In this document: positions 4,373 to 5,741 of the stretch, one piece after another
How positions within the stretch are numbered: the first letter of the stretch is position 1
Layout: each line of letters opens with the position of its first letter
Source: Candidatus Zixiibacteriota bacterium
Lineage (GTDB): Bacteria > Zixibacteria > MSB-5A5 > GN15 > FEB-12
NCBI GenBank assembly: GCA_016926795.1
Contig: JAFGNW010000038.1
Location: 1-37,999 of the forward strand
Direction: 5' to 3'
DNA: 37,999 bases
Notes under the pieces: generated by a model
What the model was told of the DNA's origin: nothing
The model's input: only the letters and a program-made list of their open reading frames with translations
Database searches by the model: none
Made by a program: the position numbers and the translations under genes

Positions 4373-4888
4373 TTACTTATTTTTAACCGCCGGACAACTC
4401 CGTTGATAGGAATCATCGGCTAAATATTTATCGGGATTTAAAAGTTTCATTTCCGGATATTTATTACGCATTTTTTCTTTGTAATGCCGGTCGATTAAAT
4501 CCGCCAGGGTGTACTCGTCAAATATCTCCATCATCTTTTCGCTGGCAATTACCCAGACCATCCGAGCCTCACAAAAACTGCTGTTGAGACAGATATCGGG
4601 ATTATAAACGCACTCCGTCAATTCCATCGGACCCTGGACAGCTTCCAGTATCTCCCGGACCTTTATCTCCCGGGGTGGACGGGCCAGTCGATAACCGCCG
4701 TTTTTCCCCGAAATACCAAAAATCAAGCCGTTATTTCTTAACGGGATAGCCAGTTGAACCAGGTAGTTGACCGACAGTCCGGTAATTTTGGCGACCCGCC
4801 CCAGATGGACCAGCTTTTTGTTTTGAAGTTCTCTCGCCAGCTCGACCATCATTCTTAAACCATATCTGGCTCGAGTAGAAAATCTCAT
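4373..4888 (-). CDS. Rrf2-family transcriptional regulator with three cysteines
   Basis: A 171-residue regulator. The N-terminal winged helix (residues 1-80) has the family signatures RYGLRMMVELA, the helix SVNYLVQL and the wing SGKNGGYRLAR. Three cysteines follow at C93, C100 and C106 (C-x6-C-x5-C). That matches the place and spacing at which IscR, NsrR and RirA bind an iron-sulfur cluster, so sensing of cluster status, nitric oxide or redox state is likely. The length slightly exceeds the usual 130-165 residues because of a C-terminal tail. It is the first gene of the operon with the cytochrome and DsrK-like subunits, which are the probable targets. A promoter and a small dyad lie directly upstream. 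Confidence 0.88.
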   Translation of the reverse strand: MRFSTRARYGLRMMVELARELQNKKLVHLGRVAKITGLSVNYLVQLAIPLRNNGLIFGISGKNGGYRLARPPREIKVREILEAVQGPMELTECVYNPDICLNSSFCEARMVWVIASEKMMEIFDEYTLADLIDRHYKEKMRNKYPEMKLLNPDKYLADDSYQRSCPAVKNK

Positions 4889-4953: not shown

Positions 4954-4982
4954 ATGATAAATTTAATAGGAGTATTTGTCAA
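4954..4982 (-). promoter_or_regulatory. Promoter of the Rrf2-cytochrome-DsrK-like operon
   Basis: On the minus strand TTGACA (4982-4977) is followed after 17 bases by TATCAT (4959-4954), a near-consensus sigma70 promoter. The predicted start is near 4947, leaving a leader of about 60 bases before the regulator's ATG. Confidence 0.6.
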
Positions 4983-5035: not shown

Positions 5036-5065
5036 TTGCACTTATGAATCTTATTGGCGTATAAT
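5036..5065 (+). promoter_or_regulatory. Strong sigma70-type promoter of a short RNA
   Basis: TTGCAC (5036-5041), an 18-base spacer and a perfect TATAAT (5060-5065) predict a start near 5071-5073. It is divergent from the Rrf2 operon promoter and drives the short unit ending at the terminator near 5222. Confidence 0.65.
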
Positions 5066-5070
5066 ATAGT

Positions 5071-5222
5071 ACACAAGAAAGGAGGTGATCTTATTAAAAA
5101 TATAGATTTATGTGAGGTGGCTGCTACTTAGGCTGCCCCGGCGGTTTCGTTGGGGTACCCTGAGTAAATCCCAACAGTTTTACCGGCCTGACCTCTTTTT
5201 TATAAAGTGGTCAGGTTTTTTT
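5071..5222 (+). ncRNA. Short SD-led structured transcript, function unknown
   Basis: The predicted RNA of about 150 bases begins with AGAAAGGAGGTGATC (5076-5090), complementary over 15 bases to a typical 16S rRNA 3' end. No ATG, GTG or TTG sits at a workable distance. The codon seven bases after GGAGG is ATT (5093), which opens a 12-codon frame ending in TAG (5129-5131). The 3' half is structured: GTTGGG (5149-5154) pairs with CCCAAC (5170-5175), flanked by CCGG (5138-5141) and CCGG (5183-5186). A terminator hairpin follows. It could be a leader peptide from a non-standard start, a regulatory RNA, or an RNA that engages the 30S subunit. I do not recognise a named RNA family. The assignment as an RNA rests on the promoter, pairing and terminator only. 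Confidence 0.5.
5187..5222 (+). terminator. Rho-independent terminator of the short RNA
   Basis: CCTGACC (5187-5193) pairs with GGTCAGG (5209-5215). After one T-T mismatch, CTTT pairs with AAAG, closing a 5-base loop. Seven T residues follow (5216-5222). The hairpin overlaps the TGA of the convergent flavoprotein gene. Confidence 0.8.
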
Positions 5223-5741
5223 ATGTCCGGATTCCGATGGCTGCCATTGGCGAAGTTCCTGAAACCGGGAAACATGATAATATCTAGTCACGGAAACTTT
5301 AAAGAGGGTCGAGGTTTCGGCTTCGATAAATGCTTTCAAGTGGGGGTGGCGTTTACCCAGCAGAAGTGACCAGGTCTGGAGGCTGGTTTCTTCCTCGATT
5401 TCCCCGGCCCGACCAGTCACCGTCAGGGCTTCGACCCGGCTCATTTCATCGGGATGCTTTCCCCGGGTATCGATTACCAGCGCCACCCCCTCGTTTTTTT
5501 TCAGCAAGCTGTATTTCCGGGTTTCTTTCGGAGTGGCGAAAACGAAGGCGCTCAGGTCGTCGCTGAACGCGAAAGCCACCAGCGAACCGTATGGTTCCTC
5601 CTCTCCCTGGGTGCACAGCACGCCATAAGGCTCTTCGTTGACGAGACGACGGATACGTTCTGGCAGTTCCGGATCATCGATTATTTTTCGCGGCTTTATA
5701 GCCAGTTTATCATCAGGTTCGGATTTATCTCTGGAAGTCAT
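5211..5741 (-). CDS. Pyridoxamine 5'-phosphate oxidase-fold flavin-binding protein
   Basis: A 176-residue protein of the FMN-binding split-barrel (PPOX) fold, closest by eye to the HugZ-like branch. A charged N-terminus leads into IRRLVNEEPYGVLCTQGEEEPYGSLVAFAF, which is the first barrel strands with the usual short-chain 'low-residue, SLVAFA' pattern. FVFATPKETRKYSLLKK and VALVIDTRGKHPDE follow. Relatives bind FMN, F420 or heme and serve as oxidoreductases or heme-handling proteins, and the ligand here cannot be told. The start is the ATG at 5741. Its stop codon lies inside the terminator hairpin of the convergent short RNA, so transcription of the two could interfere. It stands alone on its strand. 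Confidence 0.8.
   Translation of the reverse strand: MTSRDKSEPDDKLAIKPRKIIDDPELPERIRRLVNEEPYGVLCTQGEEEPYGSLVAFAFSDDLSAFVFATPKETRKYSLLKKNEGVALVIDTRGKHPDEMSRVEALTVTGRAGEIEEETSLQTWSLLLGKRHPHLKAFIEAETSTLFKVSVTRYYHVSRFQELRQWQPSESGHKKT

Follow-up and report, generated by a model that had tools for sequence, protein, structure and literature searches.

A short transcription unit in a 37,999-nucleotide stretch of Candidatus Zixiibacteriota DNA (referred to here as the window) carries a homolog of the Ms_IGR-5 RNA (Rfam RF02471). The explanation we favor, with moderate confidence, is that the unit encodes a structured, ribosome-engaging sRNA that stands alone and has its conformation reset when a ribosome loads and translates it. 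Three bacterial groups keep the reading frame and several stems; the RNA therefore probably works through ribosome engagement and not through a useful peptide, and the encoded peptide is unlikely to be the actual product. At the level of sequence comparison, the conservation of the Shine-Dalgarno (SD) stretch, frame, stop, start and helices is established, as are the stand-alone organization and the low copy number.

Organization of the transcription unit

The unit consists of a promoter, ACACA (5071–5075), an anti-16S stretch, TT, an ATT frame, a long hairpin, and a terminator, in that order (Table 1). The original prediction described the promoter as a consensus element. In 40 Zixiibacteriota homologs, a TTG −35 and a TAT-like −10 likewise occupy roughly this position. 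The wording was generous for the −35 box, which matches only three of the six consensus positions, and the promoter is missing from the list of a generic promoter scan for this reason. The strong terminator held up, and a terminator-like hairpin with a T-run is found in 46 of 51 Zixiibacteriota homologs. RNA folding of the whole unit gives −55.5 kcal/mol (z = −4.4). No tRNA or tmRNA was found in the window. On the minus strand, a near-perfect divergent promoter (TTGACA-17-TATCAT, 4954–4982) lies ahead of the Rrf2-family regulator gene.

Table 1. Coordinates of the features in and around the unit
Feature	Position	Strand	Description
Rrf2-family regulator gene	4373–4888	−	Pfam
Promoter	5036–5065	+	TTGCAC 5036–5041, spacer 18 nt, TATAAT 5060–5065
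Whole RNA	5071–5222	+	Divergent homolog of Rfam RF02471 Ms_IGR-5
PA helix, 5' strand CACA	5072–5075	+	Pairs with UGUG 5111–5114
Extended SD AGAAAGGAGGTGATC	5076–5090	+	Complement of the 16S 3' tail
P0 hairpin	5087–5108	+	SD 3' end and start codon inside; from fold
Short ORF	5093–5131	+	ATT AAA AAT ATA GAT TTA TGT GAG GTG GCT GCT ACT TAG
P1, 5' strand GGUGGCUG	5116–5123	+	Pairs with 5175–5184
P2, 5' strand with UAG stop	5125–5132	+	Pairs with 5159–5166
GUUGGG, apical hairpin	5149–5154	+	Local pairing or pairing with CCCAAC 5170–5175 (alternative helix/pseudoknot)
Intrinsic terminator	5185–5222	+	Hairpin and T-run ending at 5222; from fold
PNPOx-like gene	5211–5741	−	Pfam; next gene, convergent to the unit

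The anti-16S stretch

The extended SD is the sole exact site for AGAAAGGAGGTGATC in the window, where the other sites carry three mismatches. It is also the only site in the source genome, a 3.29 Mb metagenome assembly, when up to one mismatch is allowed. The 16S rRNA of a sister genome from the same genus (G001) ends in GGATCACCTCCTTTCT, which is the exact complement of AGAAAGGAGGTGATC; the match is therefore exact for the type of anti-SD that the organism itself has, and it is the 15-base match close to the 5' end that had been noted originally. Among the 201 distinct homologs described below, 198 can form 15–16 contiguous pairs with the 16S 3' tail. Binding of the 30S subunit by the RNA is strongly implied by sequence.

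Relation to RF02471 and distribution

RF02471 is titled 'Actinobacteria sRNA' and is an orphan family first seen in Mycobacterium smegmatis. Rfam returned no match in the window at gathering thresholds. A covariance search in E-value mode aligned RF02471 end to end with 5071–5224 (model positions 1–184), and the score of 40.2 bits (E 7.1e-8) is just under the gathering cut-off of 45 bits. Scores reach 63 bits among relatives from the same family and order, and across the phylum 25 of 133 genomes lie above the cut-off, with a maximum of 63.1 bits. The RF02471 core is present in the window unit as the SD, TGTGAGGTGGCTGC, the stop-codon stem, and AAU..CAG..ACC. The homology is clear, and the unit is therefore filed as a divergent RF02471 variant. 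Its host belongs to the Zixiibacteriota, outside the Actinobacteria of the family title, a criterion that concerns the name of the family and not the structure. The window copy shares with Ms_IGR-5 the 5' ACACA, the extended SD, a P0-type stem, the GAGGTGRCTG core, the stem over the stop codon, the AAU-CC-CAG-ACC segment, and the terminator. It differs in phylum, in its AUU start, in a shorter apical region, and in the GUUGGG/CCCAAC option. The RF02471 alignment and the open papers found, a limited literature, make no mention of an ORF, an AUU start, or the PA helix.

A DNA pattern scan covered 84,980 species. Among the matches listed are Mycobacterium, Streptomyces, Saccharopolyspora, Kitasatospora, Nocardia, Nocardioides and others, together with several Candidatus Zixiibacteriota, one Candidatus Binatia, and MAGs filed as Deltaproteobacteria or Proteobacteria; match L089 is G001:C32, a contig from the genus of the window. 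A model built from 40 Zixiibacteriota sequences identified homologs in 47 of 133 genomes of the window's phylum. Homologs are also present in 58 of 148 genomes of the class that includes the L143 genome (Binatia/'Deltaproteobacteria' MAGs), which also holds the genomes of L084, L090 and L135, and in at least 68 of 297 Actinomycetota under strict filters. Three of 198 sampled genomes from the wider phylum of L084 were positive, and none of 14 control genomes was positive at the same thresholds. The source genome has one RF02471-type copy. In nearly all positive genomes there is likewise only one match; second matches are few, and they are weak or partial.

The homolog set consists of 201 distinct sequences (129 Actinomycetota, 46 Zixiibacteriota and 26 Binatia-type) that were gathered partly with a search pattern containing the core, so retrieval itself accounts for some of the conservation of the core. 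The set was inspected for homologs with neither conserved pairing nor a conserved SD, the finding that was to count against a functional RNA. Both are conserved, and the functional RNA of the original prediction is not refuted.

Reading frame and start codon

The predicted frame opening at ATT has 12 sense codons followed by TAG (5129–5131) and reads M K N I D L C E V A A T if ATT initiates. The start and stop codons lie outside the search pattern. A stop codon is located exactly five codons after the start of GAG in 200 of 200 checkable homologs (183 TAG, 9 TGA and 8 TAA). An in-frame ATG, GTG or TTG occurs 7–13 nt after GGAGG in 189 of the 201 homologs, at the place equivalent to the window ATT; in a 140-sequence subset, the other two frames have none of these codons at SD spacings of 5–13. 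The 12 remaining homologs all have an in-frame near-cognate codon at an SD spacing of 7–9, with ATT in seven Zixiibacteriota genomes and CTG (three), ACG (one) and ATC (one) in Actinomycetota. This pattern supports a rare start, as originally suggested. The seven ATT cases, which include the window, come from five genera by genome labels only, and each ATT is exactly 7 nt from GGAGG. ATT at 7 nt was found in six of six Zixiibacteriota sequences without a normal start compared to 9 of 33 with one (Fisher p 0.0015, on six of the seven cases). The frame and the stop are kept and the near-cognate codons are found at SD spacings of 7–9; therefore, the frame is real, and the window ATT at 5093 is very probably the start of the 12-codon ORF.

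Divergent Actinomycetota homologs (L267, L269, L270, L272 and L275) have CTG, ACG or ATC as the start behind the same extended SD. GAGGTG was considered as a second SD with its own start and was rejected, since it is not followed by a start codon in any of the sequences inspected. A literature search with the peptide string returned nothing relevant.

Helices and covariation

Alignment of the homologs indicates that several paired stems are kept along with the ATT frame. PA joins the four nucleotides at positions −9 to −6 relative to GGAGG with the codon that precedes GAG and the G of GAG. The complete pairs seen are CACA/TGTG, CACG/CGTG, CAGT/ACTG, CAGC/GCTG, CGGT/ACCG, CTTC/GAAG, CAGG/CCTG, CCAG/CTGG, CGTA/TACG, CCGA/TCGG, and others. 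Both sides of PA were changed in 39 cells over 73 distinct rows compared to 10.8 in shuffles, a count in which rows shifted by one register were scored as unpaired. PA covariation was 0.374 compared to 0.136 for shuffled rows, and 0 of 500 shuffles were as high; the covariation counts, for PA as for the other helices, take related sequences as independent. The PA pairing means that the codon before GAG tracks its RNA partner. This codon is TGT, CGT, AGT, ACC, GCT, GAA, TAC, CCT or TCG, and the residue before Glu is C, R, S, T, A, E, Y, P or L. GAG GTG has no synonymous change in the 201 sequences, which is partly enforced by retrieval, and the model-based sets agree.

An equivalent of P0, a GRTCC/GGAC stem around the start codon, is present in the RF02471 consensus and in Actinomycetota and Binatia sequences. 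P1 is GGTGRCTG/CAG..ACC, with a compensatory CCG/CGG in L212/L213, and is redrawn as GGTGGTG/CACCACC in Binatia-type genomes. P2 pairs the stop-codon strand with CTAAGTA, and six of its eight pairs have changed on both sides. For the whole structure, none of 500 shuffles was as high on any measure. A Binatia-type subgroup (L219, L223, L225, L237 and similar loci) combines GAGGTGGTG..CC, an ORF ending in E-V-V-A-S/P-stop, and the redrawn P1.

The GUUGGG/CCCAAC pairing in Zixiibacteriota is above that in shuffled loops, and such pairing is partly supported in Binatia-type loci; L084 has a different sequence with the same apical-downstream pairing. Pairing of this type is not supported in Actinomycetota, and the pseudoknot was rejected as a general feature on this ground. 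The covariation-supported fold of the window copy, with PA, P0, P1 and P2, has an energy of −52.4 kcal/mol, 3.1 above the computed minimum of −55.5, and is predicted to leave most SD bases in a loop. The SD bases are partly paired in the unconstrained ensemble. The invariant wobble positions and the helices over codons suggest a constraint on the RNA and not on the peptide.

Proposed mechanism

Homologs are expressed: published reports describe a transcript validated by RNA-seq in S. lividans, a transcription unit mapped in S. avermitilis, and a transcript in M. smegmatis (PMC8079986, PMC8780764, PMC10454040). Ribosome-protected reads lie on the homologs in M. abscessus and M. smegmatis, and the authors caution that such reads are common on many non-coding RNAs (PMC4974804).

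In the model that we favor, the extended SD would be displayed in a single-stranded loop between PA and P0, open to the whole 16S 3' tail, and the 30S subunit would dock by pairing of its 16S tail with this loop. Initiation would take place on a poor start codon held in the P0 hairpin; most homologs have UUG there, and the window copy has AUU. We propose that commitment is slow and sensitive to IF3 and 30S availability because the start codon is both weak and structured. Translation of the 12 codons would open PA, P0, P1 and P2 in turn, with the stop codon in P2. In the Zixiibacteriota copies, translation would free the 3' segment GUAAAUCCCAACAGUUUUACC to re-pair with GUUGGG or another partner, and the AAAUCCCAACAG segment is a candidate site for an RNA partner. 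The RNA would thus alternate between two states, one folded and empty, the other open and occupied by a ribosome, and the open state or the occupied 30S may be the signal. AUU initiation, slow docking, the importance of the open state, and the nature of the output are inferred.

A broader and more tentative proposal is that the Ms_IGR-5-type RNAs are widespread translated structural RNAs whose function lies in ribosome loading and a dozen elongation steps and not in a peptide or a downstream gene. They might act as a free-30S/IF3 sensor or a ribosome-gated sRNA, with the entire 16S tail as the ligand, across Actinomycetota, Zixiibacteriota and a Binatia lineage. Comparison shows that this orphan Rfam sRNA, present at about one copy per genome in three major groups, carries an ORF and matches the 16S tail over its full length. 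The family features that comparison brings out are a start and stop that are never out of frame, repeated near-cognate starts, and stems over codons. The function is directly testable in M. smegmatis, S. coelicolor or S. lividans, and the homologs provide a natural set of near-cognate initiation sites (AUU, CUG, ACG and AUC).

Alternative explanations

The conserved frame could instead mark a small mRNA whose product is a 10–15 residue peptide (x-E-V-A/T-x-x) that acts as a signal or binds a protein partner. The start and stop are always in frame, Glu-Val is invariant, and Cys precedes Glu-Val in most sequences. What is conserved, however, is the nucleotide sequence, with wobble bases fixed as well; the residue before Glu tracks its RNA partner, and both the last residue and the N-terminal half are free to vary, which makes a peptide product unlikely. 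Less likely again is a purely non-coding 30S decoy, a ribosome-sequestering RNA with an untranslated ORF. The 15–16 nt of 16S-tail complementarity far exceeds the needs of initiation and the start codons are weak; both points favor a decoy. Against it, a stop codon (TAG, TAA or TGA) is kept in 200 of 200 checkable homologs, and the start stays in frame although the SD spacing ranges from 7 to 13. The original suggestion of a non-coding RNA that binds the 30S subunit is thus borne out in part: 30S binding is strongly implied and there are footprints on the mycobacterial homologs, but a non-coding RNA is improbable because the start and stop are kept in frame.

The original prediction also offered a leader peptide with a rare start, and of these the rare start is supported and the leader is not. 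An attenuator of a downstream gene has its appeal in the SD, short ORF, overlapping stems and terminator, which resemble amino-acid leaders; these leaders and transcription attenuators likewise place a short ORF over mutually exclusive stems followed by a terminator. The window unit differs from them in having no regulated downstream gene and a peptide that is not rich in one amino acid. No conserved downstream gene was found among the Zixiibacteriota homologs, where the neighbors vary from genome to genome, and the gene that follows in the window is convergent. In the homologs inspected, no competition between the terminator arms and P1 or P2 was seen. These points leave an attenuator very improbable, and the lack of a common downstream gene indicates that the RNA acts independently. 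A type I toxin mRNA would also be a short, structured, stand-alone ORF; the peptide here is hydrophilic and about 12 residues long. That reading and a chance arrangement are together the least credible, since the unit is conserved over three major bacterial groups, and this conservation excludes chance.

Comparison with other RNAs

CC2171 (RF01867, a Caulobacter sRNA) shares with the window unit a full anti-16S GAAAGGAGGUGAUCC near the 5' end, and its consensus has a GUG 7 nt further on, a structured body, and a terminator. The CC2171 alignment has no clear GAGGTGRCTG core, unlike the window unit, and CC2171 had no match in the window up to E 10. The best CC2171 score among the homologs was 30.8 bits for L222 (1507–1671) against a cut-off of 75, and this weak similarity may reflect the shared anti-16S stretch alone. 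Some CC2171 matches in Zixiibacteriota genomes lie opposite a 16S 3' end. CC2171 was rejected as the family of the unit on the basis of these matches and the low scores; it may be another ribosome-docking RNA, either analogous or a distant relative.

The infC gene (IF3) has long been known for rare start codons controlled by IF3. In S. aureus cvfC1, an AUU start behind an extended SD has been demonstrated, and this serves as a precedent (PMC13009471). The cvfC1 and infC mRNAs (AUU/AUA starts; S. aureus, PMC13009471) have in common with the window unit an extended SD that backs a weak non-canonical start, but they encode proteins and are not stand-alone structured sRNAs. The source-genome infC (locus L284) has no in-frame ATG, GTG or TTG after the preceding stop codon, and its apparent start is an ATA behind AGGAGG (G000:C129, ~30 nt before 1131).
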